A DNA stretch of 64,000 bases from Bacteroidota bacterium (GTDB lineage Bacteria; Bacteroidota; Bacteroidia; Sphingobacteriales; Sphingobacteriaceae): positions 1-64,000 of the forward strand of contig JABDFZ010000004.1 of NCBI GenBank assembly GCA_013286325.1. Reading direction: 5' to 3'. The notes beneath the pieces are model-generated. The model was not told the origin of the DNA, ran no database searches, and saw only the letters and a list, made by a program, of their open reading frames with translations. Position numbers and translations under genes: made by a program. Below are positions 5,336 to 22,453 of the stretch, piece after piece. Position 1 is the first letter of the stretch. Each line of letters opens with the position of its first letter.

Positions 5336-6775
5336 TTGGCAAAAACAAAGATCGCATACTTCTGTCAGAGCTGTGGGTACGAGTCGGCAAAATGGCTGGG
5401 TAAATGTCCATCATGCTCACAATGGAATACTTTTGTTGAAGAAATTCTGGAAAAGCCGAATACTTCCATACCTAACTGGAAAACAGCCTCCACCACCCAG
5501 CAGCGGGCCAATAAACCTGTACAGGTTGCCGATATTACTTTTACTGATGAAGACAGGCTGCTTACCCCCGATGCAGAATTTAACAGGGTTCTGGGCGGAG
5601 GCATAGTTGCCGGATCATTAGTGTTGATAGGAGGTGAGCCAGGGATTGGGAAATCAACCCTGATGCTGCAACTGGCCTTGAACATGCCAAATTTAAAGGT
5701 GCTTTATGTATCGGGAGAGGAAAGCGAACGGCAGATAAAGATGCGGGCGGAGCGCTTGGTAGAAGTTGGCAGTAAACAGTTGGCAGTTGGCAGTCCGAAA
5801 ATGGATATTGGGAAAGGCTGTTTTATATTAACCGAGACATCAACCCAAAATATATTTAAACAAATAGAGCAACTGGAGCCTGATTTGGTAGTGATCGACT
5901 CTATCCAGACTTTGCATTCTGCACATATTGAATCAACACCGGGGAGCGTTTCGCAGGTTAGGGAGTGCACTGCAGAGATGCTGCGCTTTGCAAAGGAAAG
6001 CTCGACCCCTGTATTTTTGATCGGGCATATTACTAAGGACGGTATGATTGCCGGCCCTAAAATACTGGAACATATGGTGGATACCGTGCTGCAGTTTGAG
6101 GGCGACAGGCACCATGTTTACCGCATATTGCGTACTGTTAAAAACCGTTTCGGATCGTCATCAGAACTCGGTATTTATGAAATGCTTGGCGAGGGACTGC
6201 GGGAAGTATCAAACCCATCCGAAATATTGCTTTCTCAGCGGGATGAACCCTTAAGCGGCATTACCATCTCGGCCACTTTAGAGGGCATGAGGCCTATGTT
6301 GATTGAAACACAGGCGTTGGTGAGTATTTCGGCTTACGGTACACCACAACGCACCGCTACCGGCTTTGATACCCGGCGCATGAGCATGCTGCTGGCTGTA
6401 CTGGAAAAACGCTGTGGGTTTAAGTTAGGGGCTAAAGACGTATTTTTAAATATAACAGGCGGTATAAGGGTGGAAGACCCTGCTATTGACCTGGGTCTTG
6501 CCGCTGCTATTATTTCATCGCATGAGGACATTCCTATATCGTCCAAAACCTGCTTTGCAGGGGAGATTGGTTTATCAGGAGAGATCAGGGCTGTGAACAG
6601 GGTAGAACAGCGTATTGCAGAAGCACAAAAACTGGGCTTTGAACAAATCTTTATCTCTAAATACAACCTTCCATCAGCAGGGCAGGATAAAAAGAAGATG
6701 GACCTGTCGCGTTATAAGATTGATGTAAAACTTGTAAGCAATATCGACGAGGTATTTGGGTTGTTGTTTGGCTAA
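5336..6775 (+). CDS. radA: DNA repair protein RadA; TTG start
   Basis: FCQSCGYESAKWLGKCPSC zinc motif, GGEPGIGKSTL Walker A, KNRFGSSSELG RadA motif, Lon-like C-terminus. Confidence 0.96.
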   Translation: MAKTKIAYFCQSCGYESAKWLGKCPSCSQWNTFVEEILEKPNTSIPNWKTASTTQQRANKPVQVADITFTDEDRLLTPDAEFNRVLGGGIVAGSLVLIGGEPGIGKSTLMLQLALNMPNLKVLYVSGEESERQIKMRAERLVEVGSKQLAVGSPKMDIGKGCFILTETSTQNIFKQIEQLEPDLVVIDSIQTLHSAHIESTPGSVSQVRECTAEMLRFAKESSTPVFLIGHITKDGMIAGPKILEHMVDTVLQFEGDRHHVYRILRTVKNRFGSSSELGIYEMLGEGLREVSNPSEILLSQRDEPLSGITISATLEGMRPMLIETQALVSISAYGTPQRTATGFDTRRMSMLLAVLEKRCGFKLGAKDVFLNITGGIRVEDPAIDLGLAAAIISSHEDIPISSKTCFAGEIGLSGEIRAVNRVEQRIAEAQKLGFEQIFISKYNLPSAGQDKKKMDLSRYKIDVKLVSNIDEVFGLLFG

Positions 6776-6812
6776 TTATCGCTAAAGAAAAATAACTCAA
6801 CTTTATTTTCAA

Positions 6813-6942
6813 TAATTACTGAAAGTTTAAAAATATAACTATATTTGTATCGTAAATACAGAAACGCAAATTTGGCGTGTTCTGCACATCAGCCGTAAAA
6901 CGCTGATTATTTTTTAAACATATATTTCATTAATTACTGAAA
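6813..6942 (+). repeat. Pair of exact 12-bp direct repeats TAATTACTGAAA (6813-6824 and 6931-6942)
   Basis: Seen directly; both lie in the 5' region of the DUF393 gene. Confidence 0.6.
6840..6847 (+). promoter_or_regulatory. -7 promoter element TATATTTG for the DUF393 gene
   Basis: Matches TAnnTTTG; no convincing -33. Confidence 0.4.
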
Positions 6943-6944
6943 AT

Positions 6945-7769
6945 ATGAAAACATTAGAAAATCACATGATATTGTTTGATGGTGAATGCCCTATGTGCAA
7001 AGCGTACACCCAGACATTTGTAAAAACCGGGATGCTGGAAAAGGACGGTAGGGCAGCTTACCAAAACGGTATGGATGCCGCTTGTCCGCTTATTGATAAG
7101 CAAAGAGCCGTTAATGAAATTGCTTTGGTGAACTTAAAAAATGGCGAAGTAACTTATGGCGTAAAAAGCATTTTTAAAATCATTGGCAATGCCTGCCCGG
7201 TATTTGCGCCATTGTTTGGTTTTAAGCCATTTATCTTGCTGATGAGCAAGCTTTATGCATTTATATCATACAACCGCAGGGTAATTATCCCCGCTGGGCA
7301 ACAAGGCGATGGTTTCACCTATCAACCCGAATTTAAAAAACATTATCGCATCGCTTACCTGTTATTCACTTGGTTCTTTACTGGTTATATACTAACTGCA
7401 TACGCGCATTTGTTAAGCCCTGTTGTACCCGCAGGTAATGCTTACCGCGAGTATATGATTTGTGGCGGCCAGATCATTTTTCAAGGCGCTATTATCAGCC
7501 TGTTTGCTAAAGGGAAACTATGGAACTATCTCGGTAATATGATGACCATTTCTTTCGGTGGCAGTCTATTACTTTTATTGCCTCTGGCGTTTAATCACTG
7601 GTTTTACCTGCAGCCTTTATTTTTCATTCTGTATTTTATAGCTGTTGCCGGGCTGATGTTTTTAGAGCATATCCGCAGAACAAAATTATTGCAACTGGGC
7701 TGGACGATGACCATAACCTGGGCATTATACAGAGTAATATTGCTGGTGTTGATATTGAAGTTTAGTTAA
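6945..7769 (+). CDS. DCC-family (DUF393) thiol-disulfide oxidoreductase-like membrane protein
   Basis: MILFDGECPMCKAYT CxxC start followed by several TM segments. Confidence 0.75.
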   Translation: MKTLENHMILFDGECPMCKAYTQTFVKTGMLEKDGRAAYQNGMDAACPLIDKQRAVNEIALVNLKNGEVTYGVKSIFKIIGNACPVFAPLFGFKPFILLMSKLYAFISYNRRVIIPAGQQGDGFTYQPEFKKHYRIAYLLFTWFFTGYILTAYAHLLSPVVPAGNAYREYMICGGQIIFQGAIISLFAKGKLWNYLGNMMTISFGGSLLLLLPLAFNHWFYLQPLFFILYFIAVAGLMFLEHIRRTKLLQLGWTMTITWALYRVILLVLILKFS

Positions 7770-16191: not shown

Positions 16192-16797
16192 ATGAAGGCA
16201 GCTTATTTAAAACCTTTTCTTGTAGCTGCATTTATTATCCTTATCGACCAGATAATAAAGACCTGGGTAAGGACACACATGGATTTTAACTCAGAAATTC
16301 ACTTCCTGGGCGAGCATGGAATGTTGCGTTACACAGAAAATAACGGCATGGCTTTTGGCTGGGAACTGGGCGGTAAAGTAGGGAAGCTGGTGTTAACGCT
16401 GTTTCGTATTCTTGCTGTTTGCGCCATTGGTTATGGCCTTGTTTACCTTATTAAACATAAATATCATCGCGGCCTTATTATGTGCGTAGCCTTGATATTT
16501 GCCGGTGCGCTGGGTAATATCATCGATTCAACTTTTTATGGGTTATTATACCAAAACGGACATCTATTTGAAGGTCGTGTGGTTGATATGTTTTACTTCC
16601 CTTTATTTAAAGGAACTTACCCATCGTGGGTGCCTGTTTGGCATGGGCAGCGGTTTGAATTTTTCGAACCTATATTTAACCTTGCCGATGCCTCTATATC
16701 CGTTGGCGTAATTGCTATACTGCTTTTCCAGAAACGTTACTTCAAGCATGAAGTACCCGAAGCAAGCAGCCCCAATAGCGAAATGGTGGAGGAGTAA
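16192..16797 (+). CDS. lspA: Lipoprotein signal peptidase (signal peptidase II)
   Basis: IIDSTFYGLLYQ..., GRVVDMFYF, FNLADASISVG catalytic motifs. Confidence 0.95.
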   Translation: MKAAYLKPFLVAAFIILIDQIIKTWVRTHMDFNSEIHFLGEHGMLRYTENNGMAFGWELGGKVGKLVLTLFRILAVCAIGYGLVYLIKHKYHRGLIMCVALIFAGALGNIIDSTFYGLLYQNGHLFEGRVVDMFYFPLFKGTYPSWVPVWHGQRFEFFEPIFNLADASISVGVIAILLFQKRYFKHEVPEASSPNSEMVEE

Positions 16798-16827: not shown

Positions 16828-16880
16828 AGCCGGGAACCAGGAAAATAAGAGTTACATCTTATCCCTGATTCCCGGCTTTT
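16828..16880. terminator. Bidirectional hairpin between lspA and the convergent 1383-aa gene
   Basis: AGCCGGGAACCAGG ... CCTGATTCCCGGCT followed by TTTT on +, A-rich on the other side. Confidence 0.75.
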
Positions 16881-16900: not shown

Positions 16901-19900
16901 TTACTGCGCTTTCGGGCTACTACCCTGGAAAAGGGAGACGACCTTTAAAATAGCCGGAACTCCCGCACCAATTGCTGTTACATAAGTAATTATCTTGGTA
17001 TAGGCTTCCTGTTGCGATGCTATCAGGAAAACAAGGATAGCCAATACAGCTATAATCAGCGGTATCTTTAGGCTGCCCCAATTACCATTATCCTTAACCT
17101 GGTCTTTTATTCGGTTTGCCTCAGCGTTGCCTATAGCGGTAAGTATAAAATTACGGAAACCTTTGTTAAATAACATCAGCGTCCCTTTTGGTTTTATGAT
17201 GAGGCCCTTGCACATTAGCATGCTCAGGTTATAATCATCATACGGGTTTACCAACCCATCTTCAGCTAAATCATATAACAAAAACTTTTCTTCCTTGGTA
17301 AGCGATTGCCATATATAAGTATAAAAATAGTGCGAGGTTATTTGGAGCTTAAAAATCAGCGAATCGCTTATTTCCCCCAATTCTTTGTCTTCCGGATGCA
17401 GGTTTTCCAATGTCATTTTCTGCATATTGTTTAGATAATGCGAGTACTGGGTTTCTTCCATAACAGTGCGGCGCAATTCATTATCATCATTGGCGTTTTT
17501 AAATTGCAGTGGTTCAACCACAATGCGGAAGTGCCCCAAAAGTACGTGCCAGCGTTCCAGCTCGCTTTCTTGTGTCTCTTTGCCCTGTTGATCATTATAC
17601 GAATCGAGGAAAGTAATAGGGTGAACGGTTGATACAATGATCACCTTGCTTCTCCCTTTCTGCATCAGTGACTCAAGCAGATCGAGTTTTATACTGTTGG
17701 TTTTGTCGTCTTTAATATTGTATTCAAAATGATTAATAATGATAAGGGAATAGCAGTCTCTAAGTGCCTCTTCCTTGCAGGCTTTCCAGTCTGGGTCATT
17801 TGCACCTGCCTCGGGCGATATCAGGATCATATCGGCAATAAAAACATTATTATCCGATGGCTCTTTTTCATTATAGATCAGCAGCTCCCTGTTATTTCCC
17901 AGTAGCCTTTTTGATTTAAACGCATCGAACTTTTTCTCCCATAATTCGGGCTGGTTTTTTTTCTGTAAAAGAAGCAGCTCTTTTTCTTCCCGGTCGGTCA
18001 GTTTGTTCCGCTTTAGTACCTTTTTTAATTTGTTCAACTTGCCTGAGCCGGGAGAGCCCAGGATAAAAAGCAGCGAATTCAGCTTGTTATCATGCAAAAG
18101 CTTTTCATCCATGTTTTCCCATCCGTGTTTCGATGGCAGGTTAAGTGCAAACAGTTTCCTGATAATATTATGGATAACATAATAAAACCCGATAATGGGT
18201 ATGCTAAGCACCAGCCAGAAAATTATAGCAGGATAATCACTAATAATGAGCGATATCAGACTAAAATTATATCCTGCCTTTTTATAATTACAGATGGTAT
18301 AAAAGCTGCGGTTTTGTGCATGGGTAAGGCTGCTGAAAACAACCTCATTATTCACCGACCGCGAATTTAAATTGCCATTCTTTAACGATATACTGTTTTT
18401 ATAAAATTTAACAGCGCTTAATACTTTTATGGTAAAGTAATCCTCCTTTGTGTATTTACATGTATCGTTCAGTTGTGTTCCAATCCCGCTCTTGCCGTTA
18501 ATTACAGGAAGTATTTTATTTACATATATGCCATCGTAATAAACACCGCTTGTGTACAATTGTCCTTTTTGAATGCTATCAAGCCGCGGTTTTGTGATGC
18601 TTCCTGGAGGCATCTTTTGTGTTAGCGAACTTGCAAAAGTTAGTTGGCTATCTCGGGTAATTAAATTTTGCTCGTAGTTAAAAGAATAAATAAAAAAGAA
18701 AACCACAGGGATCCCGCTGGTAACAATTAACCGGGTTGTTGCCATTAGCGCGAAACTATTGGTGTAGCTCCAGTTAAGTGCATGCCTGCTTTTGTAGTCT
18801 ATTAATTTATCAAGCAGATAAGTGCCTGCCTTACAGGATAAAAAACCTGCTGCTGCTGCCAGGAACTCGAATGACAGCAGGAGCCAGAAGTTTTCATGAT
18901 CGAGCGTTTTCCATGCGAAGTAATCAATAAGGTTTACAAATATGCATAGCCACTTTACAGCAATCATCTTATACCTGTAATTATTAGGCGCTCTTTCCTT
19001 GTACTTAGCGGCAAAAATACTGTTTAAAAATATGGAGATAAACGTGACAGAAAAAAGCAGGATATAAATATAACAGAGAAAAGAGCTAAACTGGAAAAAA
19101 ATAATAAGCAGTATAATGAGCGTTCCATTCGAAATTATGGCCAGGTTATATTCCCTGTGAGATGTTGTTTTAGGGCCGATCCAGGAGGTATCAAAAAACT
19201 GTTTCTTGAAAAAAGAACGTTTGGACGAGGCAAGAAAAACCACCAGAAACTGGATTAACTGGAAAGTAAGCAGATAAATAAGCATGGATACGGTAAAGGA
19301 ATAATCCTCAATATCGCGGGTATCGTTATAGTTGGTATCCTCAAATATTACCAAAAAATAAGGTAATCCCGACAGCGGTTTTATCTTTATTTTATATTGT
19401 TTGCCAAAATAGTCGGCAGTAAAATTTGTGTCCGATTTTGCTTCAAGGCAGCTTACCAGCATGCTGCTGTCGGCAAACTCTTTCTTGAGGTTTTCATTCA
19501 AATTACGATCAGGGTGATAGTGATACAGTACATCTCCATCTTCATTAATAACAGCAAATTGGTAACCATCTGGCATTATTACACTATCCAGGCTTTTGGC
19601 AGTAAATGTCATCGCTGCTATGGTAAAATTGCCTTTTAAAGCCTTTTTAGCAATTACAGATGTAAAGGCACCCGTGGTTCTGGATACCACCTGATCGAGA
19701 TAAAATTCAAACTTGCCTTTGCTATTGGGCCTATTGGTAACAATATTCTTAAAATAATCCCTTTCGCTAAAGTTGGCATGCAAGGCGTTAACACTATCGG
19801 TAGTCCAGTTATTTCTTTCCATCCCGGTTGAATCGAGCCAATAAACCTGTTTTACACTCATGTTCGGAGCCTCTTTTCTAAGTAGTGCGTCGCACGATAC

Positions 19901-21052
19901 ATCTTTTATACCCTGCGCATATTTTATATGGTTACTTCCCAGGTTGATTATATCAGTTTTTTCTGTTTTATAAACTAGGTCGTATTGTGAAAGCTGCCGG
20001 TACGCATTATCAATCTCAAGTGCAAATGCAGCATCTATTCTATTGGCCAGTTTATTTACCGATTTTGAAAGCTGCCCATACTCGGTCCTGAAAGCATATA
20101 TAATAAACACGAAAAATAACAGCGACATAAGTAACATGGATACCAGGATGCTTGAAACACCATCAACTACCGTTAGCTTATCCTTGCTACCCATCTGGTA
20201 TAACTTTAACCAGGGAAGTGAAACTATAGTAATAACTGTTGCTGTTAAAAGTACGACCATTGTCCATAAAGGCAATTGGCTTTTCTCTTTCTGATAGTTT
20301 TTAGCCGAAACCAACCCAACTATCAGCCATTCATTATTAACATCAACCCTTACAGGCTGCGAAAACGCCTTGTAATCCCTGCCGCCAATAGTAAGCGACC
20401 GTACGCCAGGGCTTGTTACCTTGTTTTTAACTTCCAGCAGCGAGTCTCTTATTTTATAGTTTAAACCGGAAGGAAATGTTTCATAAACCTCTCTTTGGCT
20501 GTTATTAAAAACCACATAATTATCAAAAGTATCGCCTGCCAGCAGGGGCTTAATAAACTGATCGAAACGATAACGGATGCCAATAGATATTGAATCTGTT
20601 TCTTTTACCCCTTTTATTAAGTTACTTACTGTTAAGGTAAATTGTTGCGAATTGGAATCCGCATTAATGATAGTAGTAACAGGGCTATCGCCCCTGACAA
20701 TAGCATTTTTTTGCTTTGCAGGCACAATTTGGATACGTAGTAGTGTAAAATCCTTTTGCGAATATTGAGTGATATAATCGTTTAGCCGTTTTAAACTATC
20801 GCTATAAATTTTTAAGTTATCTTGATTTTTAGGGTAGGCTAATAAAAGGTTTTTAATAAGAGAAATACTGTTATCAATTTTAAAATGGATGTTATTGTCA
20901 ATAATCTGAAGGCACCTGAACCTGCGTTCCTGAACAGTTTTTTCATTATTAGGCACATAGATAAAAAAGTAGGAAGCACCTAAAAAGATCAGGATAAGTA
21001 ATGTGCCAAAAACTGCCATCTGGTTTTTTATTGCTGAGAAAAGTTTTGACAT
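16901..21052 (-). CDS. 1383-aa polytopic membrane sensor: Cache-like extracytoplasmic regions, multi-TM core, cytoplasmic P-loop/AAA-like module with winged-helix-like tail and C-terminal TM
   Basis: Two or more extracytoplasmic regions, one Cache-like (KQVYWLDSTGMERNN...FSERDYFKNIVTNRPNSKGKFEFYLDQVVSRTTGAFTSVIAKKALKGNFTIAAMTFTAKSLDSVI...GDVLYHYHPD). P-loop-like LLFILGSPGSGKLNKLK, Walker-B-like SLIIINHFEY, sensor-like KVIIVSTVHP. Confidence 0.7.
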   Translation of the reverse strand: MSKLFSAIKNQMAVFGTLLILIFLGASYFFIYVPNNEKTVQERRFRCLQIIDNNIHFKIDNSISLIKNLLLAYPKNQDNLKIYSDSLKRLNDYITQYSQKDFTLLRIQIVPAKQKNAIVRGDSPVTTIINADSNSQQFTLTVSNLIKGVKETDSISIGIRYRFDQFIKPLLAGDTFDNYVVFNNSQREVYETFPSGLNYKIRDSLLEVKNKVTSPGVRSLTIGGRDYKAFSQPVRVDVNNEWLIVGLVSAKNYQKEKSQLPLWTMVVLLTATVITIVSLPWLKLYQMGSKDKLTVVDGVSSILVSMLLMSLLFFVFIIYAFRTEYGQLSKSVNKLANRIDAAFALEIDNAYRQLSQYDLVYKTEKTDIINLGSNHIKYAQGIKDVSCDALLRKEAPNMSVKQVYWLDSTGMERNNWTTDSVNALHANFSERDYFKNIVTNRPNSKGKFEFYLDQVVSRTTGAFTSVIAKKALKGNFTIAAMTFTAKSLDSVIMPDGYQFAVINEDGDVLYHYHPDRNLNENLKKEFADSSMLVSCLEAKSDTNFTADYFGKQYKIKIKPLSGLPYFLVIFEDTNYNDTRDIEDYSFTVSMLIYLLTFQLIQFLVVFLASSKRSFFKKQFFDTSWIGPKTTSHREYNLAIISNGTLIILLIIFFQFSSFLCYIYILLFSVTFISIFLNSIFAAKYKERAPNNYRYKMIAVKWLCIFVNLIDYFAWKTLDHENFWLLLSFEFLAAAAGFLSCKAGTYLLDKLIDYKSRHALNWSYTNSFALMATTRLIVTSGIPVVFFFIYSFNYEQNLITRDSQLTFASSLTQKMPPGSITKPRLDSIQKGQLYTSGVYYDGIYVNKILPVINGKSGIGTQLNDTCKYTKEDYFTIKVLSAVKFYKNSISLKNGNLNSRSVNNEVVFSSLTHAQNRSFYTICNYKKAGYNFSLISLIISDYPAIIFWLVLSIPIIGFYYVIHNIIRKLFALNLPSKHGWENMDEKLLHDNKLNSLLFILGSPGSGKLNKLKKVLKRNKLTDREEKELLLLQKKNQPELWEKKFDAFKSKRLLGNNRELLIYNEKEPSDNNVFIADMILISPEAGANDPDWKACKEEALRDCYSLIIINHFEYNIKDDKTNSIKLDLLESLMQKGRSKVIIVSTVHPITFLDSYNDQQGKETQESELERWHVLLGHFRIVVEPLQFKNANDDNELRRTVMEETQYSHYLNNMQKMTLENLHPEDKELGEISDSLIFKLQITSHYFYTYIWQSLTKEEKFLLYDLAEDGLVNPYDDYNLSMLMCKGLIIKPKGTLMLFNKGFRNFILTAIGNAEANRIKDQVKDNGNWGSLKIPLIIAVLAILVFLIASQQEAYTKIITYVTAIGAGVPAILKVVSLFQGSSPKAQ

Positions 21053-21343: not shown

Positions 21344-22453
21344 ATGAAATGGAAACTTCCTTTTAGAAAGAAAACCGACAGTAATAAGCCCAAAAAATCA
21401 AAGACCCGCGAGTGGGTGGATGCCATACTATTTGCTGTAATTGCATCAACTATCATCAGGGGTTTACTATTTTCTGCCTATGCCATCCCTTCCGGCTCGA
21501 TGGAAGGTACGCTGCTTACAGGCGATTATTTGTTTGTTAGCAAGATCAGCTATGGGCCGAGGATGCCTTTCACACCGGTTTCGGTTCCTTTTTTGGAATC
21601 CACCGTTACTAAATATAATATTAAAACCTATTGGGATGGCATTAAGCTGCCCTACTTTCGTTTACCCGGCCTGGCCGAAATAAAGAAAGGCGATATTGTT
21701 GTTTTTAATAAACCGGATGAAGCCGACCCATCGTACAATAAACCTGTAGATGTAAGGACAAACTTAATTAAACGCTGCCAGGCAACCCCCGGCGACCTAC
21801 TCACCATAGTAAATGCGCAGGTATATATTAACGGCAAAGCGATGCCTAATGCTGAGAAATCGCAAACATCATATACCGTAGTTACGGATGGCACCAGTAT
21901 TAATCCGCAGGTATTTCAGGACATGAACATTGAAATGCTTTCGCAAAGTGATGCCAATACCTACGAAATGATCATTCCCAAAGCTTACCTGGCTACATTT
22001 AAAAGCTTCTCTAACATAAAAAGTGTGACACCTTTTATAGCTCCCGCAGGGAAATATGACCCCTCGGTATTTCCACATAACGAAAAATTTAAATGGAACC
22101 AGGACAACTTTGGTCCGCTTGTTATGCCAAAAAGAGGGATGACTATCCCACTTAATGATTCTACAATGGCTCTATACCGCCGGGCAATTGAACTTTACGA
22201 GAACAACAAAGTAGAAATAAACGGAAAAGATGTATTGATTAACGGTAAAAAGGCCGACAATTATACCTTTAAAATGAATTACTACTGGATGATGGGCGAC
22301 AACAGGCATAACTCGCTCGACTCCCGTTTCTGGGGATATGTTCCGGAAGACCATGTGGTTGGTAAAGCCATGATAACCTGGATGAGCATTGATTCGACAG
22401 GCACCTTTTTCGATAAGATCAGGTGGAGCCGGATCTTTAAACCAATCAATTAA
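21344..22453 (+). CDS. lepB: Signal peptidase I
   Basis: IPSGSMEGTLLTGDYLFVSKISYGPR, IKRCQATPGD, MGDNRHNSLDSRFWGYVP. Confidence 0.96.
   Translation: MKWKLPFRKKTDSNKPKKSKTREWVDAILFAVIASTIIRGLLFSAYAIPSGSMEGTLLTGDYLFVSKISYGPRMPFTPVSVPFLESTVTKYNIKTYWDGIKLPYFRLPGLAEIKKGDIVVFNKPDEADPSYNKPVDVRTNLIKRCQATPGDLLTIVNAQVYINGKAMPNAEKSQTSYTVVTDGTSINPQVFQDMNIEMLSQSDANTYEMIIPKAYLATFKSFSNIKSVTPFIAPAGKYDPSVFPHNEKFKWNQDNFGPLVMPKRGMTIPLNDSTMALYRRAIELYENNKVEINGKDVLINGKKADNYTFKMNYYWMMGDNRHNSLDSRFWGYVPEDHVVGKAMITWMSIDSTGTFFDKIRWSRIFKPIN

Follow-up and report, generated by a model that had tools for sequence, protein, structure and literature searches.

Inactive STAND modules, termed iSTAND and iSTAND2, are part of the MoxR-vWA ternary conflict systems (PMC7159879, PMC8195603). 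Receptors with a double Cache (dCache) ectodomain are represented by histidine kinases (HKs), chemoreceptors and diguanylate cyclases (PMC4822843), and CisA is a bitopic membrane adaptor of the Streptomyces contractile injection systems (CIS), encoded within the CIS clusters and tied to cell death (PMC12237407). Gene X lies at 16901..21052 on the minus strand of the window, the whole 64,000-nucleotide stretch analysed here (contig JABDFZ010000004.1, assembly GCA_013286325.1, Bacteroidota), and encodes a predicted Cache-type receptor with a pseudo-STAND module. As proposed in the initial annotation, made from the sequence alone, its open reading frame (ORF) runs uninterrupted and encodes 1383 residues. 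The X family appears to be an undescribed Bacteroidota family of large inner-membrane proteins, which combines known parts in a new way. With middling confidence, X is interpreted as an inner-membrane receptor whose inactive STAND-like module passes the state of a periplasmic ligand on to a partner in the cytoplasm, which in some lineages would be a phospholipase.

The likeness to iSTAND lies in a STAND fold with eroded NTP-binding motifs that is kept as a sensor or scaffold, in the membrane-proximal position of a subset, and in the occurrence in Bacteroidetes. X differs by its Cache ectodomains and ~12 transmembrane (TM) helices and by having no fused effector-associated domain or effector; no MoxR or vWA genes were recognised beside X in the gene lists of ~36 loci, MoxR and vWA profiles not having been run on all neighbours. 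With the STAND NTPases (Avs4, NLRs and the archaeal protein 2qen), its best Foldseek matches, X shares a P-loop block followed by a winged helix, but its Walker A and B motifs are degenerate, a TM hairpin stands in place of the C-terminal repeat sensor, and the predicted sensor lies in the N-terminal part, on the periplasmic side. The dCache receptors resemble X in the double Cache ectodomain between TM helices and in the long signalling helices, whereas the output of X is a P-loop/winged-helix module outside the surveyed classes of HK, methyl-accepting chemotaxis protein (MCP), GGDEF/EAL/HD, phosphatase and cyclase (PMC4822843).

Membrane architecture and distribution of the X family

From the N-terminus to the C-terminus, hydropathy and AlphaFold2 delineate TM1 with a stalk, ectodomain 1, TM2-3, a stalk, ectodomain 2, TM4, a five-helix bundle, ectodomain 3, TM10, the P-loop block, the winged helix and the TM hairpin. 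The AlphaFold2 model of residues 1-975 reaches a pLDDT of 78.6 and a pTM of 0.76. TM1 (residues 10-36; 20945..21025, minus strand as for all domains of X) is followed by ectodomain 1 (residues 80-257; 20282..20815), which is Cache-like in the AlphaFold2 model, the Foldseek matches being to the whole N-terminal model. TM2-TM3 (residues 258-325; 20078..20281) lead to ectodomain 2 (residues 385-573; 19334..19900), a dCache domain identified through relatives, Foldseek and the alignment. TM4 and the five-helix bundle (residues 574-813; 18614..19333) precede the small ectodomain 3 (residues 814-935; 18248..18613), delimited by AlphaFold2 and alignment and the least conserved region of X, and TM10 (residues 936-970; 18143..18247) enters the cytoplasmic part.

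The dCache_1 family matches ectodomain 2 in 9 of 22 relatives, at E values around 1e-11 and with a best E of 7.6e-12, and dCache ligand-binding domains lead the Foldseek matches of the N-terminal model. The motifs SERDYFKNI and FAVINEDGD are located at residues 429 and 499, and across the 31 aligned members R431 is invariant and Y433 is invariant or nearly so. By TM parity, the three ectodomains are all external and the P-loop block is cytoplasmic, in agreement with the density of K/R in short loops (0.19 inside versus 0.09 outside). An outward dCache fold between TM helices, as in dCache receptors, is found in X by AlphaFold2 and Foldseek, by dCache_1 in relatives, by topology parity and by loop charges; in these models, two Cache-type ectodomains, the second a dCache, and a small third one face the periplasm. 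The initial annotation had described an alternation of TM segments with at least two ectodomains, one of them Cache-like, and both descriptions hold, the ectodomains being three. No HK, MCP, GGDEF, cyclase or phosphatase output domain is matched by Pfam or NCBIfam in 22-31 members. The five-helix bundle, present besides the anchoring helices, could be taken as a solute-moving unit regulated by the Cache and pseudo-ATPase domains, and one member weakly matches CitMHS (E 0.0025). This transporter-like reading is very unlikely: matches to transporter families are not reproduced from member to member, and the TM bundle is poor in invariant residues (1.7% at 90% conservation).

The window protein matches nothing in Pfam, NCBIfam or the anti-phage defence models of PADLOC, so that, as anticipated, no family in these libraries covers the full architecture. 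Across the 31 members NCBIfam gives no family and one marginal match only, a sequence search of solved structures with X returns nothing significant, and plasmid-borne copies were not found in PLSDB. A single-protein search of genome contigs recovers only Taibaiella soli (Bacteroidota), whose relative is 41% identical in its best segment; profile searches of genomes are far more sensitive. X profiles match 25 of 401 genomes of the order and 15 of 395 of the class, and the C-terminal domain alone matches 10 of 396 genomes of the phylum, a few of the matches being to marginal fragments. Full-length relatives of ~1107-1579 residues are spread across Bacteroidota in a minority of genomes, a recurrence that had been named beforehand as supporting evidence. 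The tree of 37 members has long deep branches whose order is unsure. Full-length homologues across Bacteroidota, together with the low ratios of nonsynonymous to synonymous substitution (dN/dS) in close pairs, indicate that the gene is more than a chance ORF.

Two loci carry interrupted copies. At L071, 6909-10940 (genome G408), X is broken into several ORFs, while the near-identical copy of the sister genome G299 is intact. At L104, 7425-11762, one in-frame TAA interrupts X mid-gene and leaves ORFs of 729 and 714 residues, so that this copy could be a pseudogene or a form naturally made as two chains.

The cytoplasmic module

The P-loop block (residues 971-1190; 17483..18142) is STAND/AAA+-like and degenerate according to AlphaFold2 and Foldseek. 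Within it, the sequence and alignment define a degenerate Walker A, GSPGSGK followed by L (residues 999-1006; 18035..18058), and the Walker B position LIIINHFEY (residues 1103-1111; 17720..17746), and the sequence and AlphaFold2 model a sensor-1-like strand, KVIIVSTVHP (residues 1136-1145; 17618..17647). The winged-helix domain (residues 1191-1320; 17093..17482), outlined by alignment and AlphaFold2, is the most conserved soluble part of X, with the largest fraction of near-invariant columns (13.8%). The C-terminal TM hairpin (residues 1321-1376; 16925..17092; hydropathy and AlphaFold2) follows directly and ends the protein, and none of the superstructure-forming repeats of STAND C-termini are present in X. 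The motifs quoted in the initial annotation, SERDYFKNI, GSPGSGK followed by L and KVIIVSTVHP, are all recovered, with the correction that the Walker B string is LIIINHFEY and not IIIINHFEY.

The AlphaFold2 model of residues 958-1383 (pLDDT 84.8, pTM 0.77) is matched best by Avs4 (E 9.8e-4) and the archaeal 2qen (9.8e-4), followed by DnaA, with the plant NLRs RPP1 and Roq1 and with Avs5 lower. The order typical of STAND proteins, an ASCE P-loop fold and then a winged helix, is found in X at the level of the fold only (AlphaFold2, Foldseek). The Walker A consensus GxxxxGK[ST] is broken by L in place of S/T in the window protein and most of its clade, and in the Walker B consensus hhhhD[DE] the first D is replaced by N. 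The P-loop fold proposed in the initial annotation, its degenerate Walker A and the winged helix are borne out by AlphaFold2, Foldseek and the alignment. The statement that X is not a STAND-TPR protein stands in the strict sense, since repeats are missing and motifs eroded, but falls short in that the cytoplasmic fold is STAND/AAA+-like.

The GSPGSGK-L loop extends through most of the window clade. A canonical Walker A is seen in two distant relatives only, L101 (GPPGSGKT) and L103 (GLPGSGKS); L101 also weakly matches the NB-ARC, ATPase_2 and AAA families, and L066 weakly matches nSTAND1. In two members the motif is PPRAMGSK, in L030, L102 and L106 it is lost altogether, and in L107, L108, L109 and L074 the whole P-loop block is gone, with the winged helix and TM hairpin remaining; the winged helix is retained throughout. 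The canonical loops of L101 and L103 suggest that the motif of X was eroded from a working NTPase. In two close pairs dN/dS is 0.035 and 0.096 for the whole protein and 0 and 0.095 for the P-loop block, and this strong purifying selection points to a maintained pseudo-NTPase rather than to decay. Judged from sequence, the cytoplasmic block of X is probably a maintained pseudo-NTPase that does not hydrolyse. The same loops of L101 and L103, the fold matches to Avs4 and NLRs and the GK lysine retained in the window clade would also suit an active STAND-type switch, which would still bind and hydrolyse ATP through atypical motifs, assemble into oligomers as NLRs or Avs proteins do once the ectodomains are engaged, and in this way activate an effector. 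The replacement of S/T by L and of D by N in the window clade, and the further erosion or loss of the whole block in members that retain the rest of the protein, make this switch unlikely.

Neighbouring lipases, injection systems and the window locus

A lipase gene directly adjoins X on the same strand in 9 of ~36 relatives, encoding a patatin in six, a Tle1-like enzyme in two and an alpha/beta hydrolase in one. The patatins, of two different types, lie 10-19 bp upstream of X in five loci, and in the sixth (L066, patatin at 6035-7342) the gene overlaps X or is 11 bp away, depending on the start codon chosen. The Tle1-like lipase of L069 (11549-12622; PF09994, E 1.6e-91) is downstream and overlaps X, that of L124, in a distant group, is 54 bp upstream, and the alpha/beta hydrolase of L108 is ~30 bp upstream. 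Eight patatin or Tle1 neighbours are observed against ~0.045 expected, far above chance, the expectation being a rough Poisson estimate based on ~2.5 patatins and 0.3 Tle1 per genome and on an assumed ~4,500 genes per genome. Lipase type, side and tree indicate at least four separate associations.

Tle1-like enzymes are type VI secretion system effectors with cognate immunity proteins, and lipases of unrelated folds (patatin, Tle1-like) interchange beside X. X might restrain the neighbouring lipase or protect against it from within the membrane, as a negative regulator or as the immunity half of a toxin-immunity pair, with the ectodomains as scaffolding. Only a small probability is assigned to this, since most X genes are solitary and the invariant positions are concentrated in the winged helix and in ectodomain 2, a receptor-like pattern; known Tle immunity proteins are small and not 1300-residue Cache receptors.

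Some X islands also hold LuxR-type regulators, peptidoglycan amidases and the membrane protein ‘c4’. The ‘c4’ family (for example L066:3328-4569, L101:3691-4704 and L107:15581-16753) comprises unannotated membrane proteins of ~340-680 residues, often adjoining peptidoglycan amidase or SH3-type genes, and has no convincing Pfam match. As an obligate partner of X it was rejected: although 7 loci have it close to X, other genomes carry it at a separate place, and it is also found where X is missing, which makes it at most a shared accessory. In L101 the cluster that holds X includes a caspase-domain peptidase at 17002-17838 (PF00656, E 1.6e-24) with M19 dipeptidases and an amidohydrolase, and in L108 (11180-17146) a single gene run places X after an alpha/beta hydrolase, a subtilase, a papain-like protease and a small membrane protein.

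X co-occurs with extracellular contractile injection systems (eCIS). Within the genus, strong eCIS_core matches are present in 17 of 18 genomes with X versus 6 of 41 without (Fisher p 6e-9; p 0.007 when limited to genomes of at least 5.2 Mb), and outside it in 8 of 21 versus 5 of 80 (p 7e-4). A strong match is one with E below 1e-20; this cut-off, like the decision to merge near-identical genomes, was set once the data had been seen. With these post hoc choices and shared ancestry only partly controlled, the relation is a correlation only. In the closely related genomes G006 and G384, the X-patatin pair is ~6-10 kb from several eCIS_core genes. LuxR-type regulators adjoin some X genes, and a LuxR/GerE regulator adjoining eCIS loci is a published feature (PMC8213781). 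X shares with CisA its place in the membrane and its occurrence in genomes that encode contractile injection systems, but CisA is bitopic and sits within the CIS cluster, whereas X has ~12 TM helices and is near eCIS_core genes in only those two genomes. In the window genome, X is on contig C4 and two eCIS_core (PF13699) genes are on contig C10 (L157, 12000-31900), where they adjoin large genes taken as baseplate-type injection-system genes. In G155 (contig C11; L162, 5518-8429), two eCIS_core-like genes stand beside a ‘c4’-like membrane protein, a 109-residue protein, a probable 144-residue lipoprotein and a regulator of c13-like (PAS/LuxR) type; together these genes recall the X islands.

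In the window, X is flanked by lspA (16192-16797) and lepB (21344-22453), both on the plus strand; it is convergent with lspA, with a gap of 104 bp, and divergent from lepB. Lying on the opposite strand, X shares an operon with neither gene, and this arrangement makes X its own transcription unit. A terminator-like inverted repeat, AGCCGGGAA...TTCCCGGCTTTT (16828..16880), lies between lspA and X; its loop exceeds the length handled by the terminator scan, and it was identified by eye from the printed sequence. Upstream of X, no clear match to a Bacteroidota-type -7/-33 promoter was found, and an Rfam search around X gave no match. The G+C content at third codon positions (0.41) is similar to that of neighbouring genes and bears no compositional sign of recent foreign origin. 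The position between lspA and lepB would suit a role in protein maturation with the signal peptidases LspA and LepB, and the initial annotation had drawn attention to this setting. Gene order around X is unconserved, however: lspA-X-lepB is seen in the window only, G022 is the only other genome with X after lspA, there without lepB, and relatives lacking X carry other genes after lspA. A conserved association is thereby refuted, a functional link is rejected on strand, repeat and synteny, and the maturation role retains next to no probability.

Proposed relay and its implications

In the favoured receptor model, a small periplasmic ligand would bind the dCache domain, and the helix stalks and TM bundle would carry the induced change to the cytoplasmic module. 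This module, no longer cycling ATP, would act as a conformational scaffold centred on the winged helix and switch a partner in the cytoplasm on or off. The phospholipase encoded beside X, patatin or Tle1-like, would be the most likely such partner in several relatives, and in these lineages the receptor would control an attack on the membrane of its own cell or the remodelling of that membrane. For the solitary X of the window, the partner would be encoded elsewhere or be a different one.

Several observations weigh against this model. The dCache_1 scores seen, 43.2 and 43.0 bits, are just below the Pfam cut-off of 45, and the window protein itself is without any Pfam match. Foldseek gives low TM-scores against STAND proteins (the top two, scored by target, lie at 0.11-0.35), and X may still bind nucleotide without hydrolysing it. 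An adjacent lipase is absent from the window and its whole clade, the window genome, which is incomplete, has one patatin, located elsewhere, and no Tle1, and around three quarters of X genes have no lipase neighbour. Gene order is shared only among close relatives, so the partner may differ by lineage.

With these points considered, the model is plausible, and that X belongs to an undescribed signalling system, as first suggested, we still infer. A wider proposal, tentative and unlikely, gives X the receptor role in an as yet undescribed, modular Bacteroidota system for self-lysis or membrane remodelling. In eCIS-carrying cells, a periplasmic ligand would act through Cache and a pseudo-STAND relay to unleash phospholipases that can replace one another (patatin, Tle1-like), joined in some islands by peptidoglycan amidases, perhaps to release particles or kill the producer.

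The combination of Cache with a STAND-like pseudo-NTPase falls outside the family libraries searched, and no description was found in the literature searched. Cache is the commonest bacterial extracellular sensor fold, and NLR/STAND proteins are usually fed by intracellular cues; X would bring cues from outside the cell into the NLR/STAND world. That phospholipases of unrelated kinds replace each other next to a single receptor suggests an effector-control system open to testing, and the joint occurrence of X and contractile injection systems gives a concrete lead on how cells might time lysis or firing.

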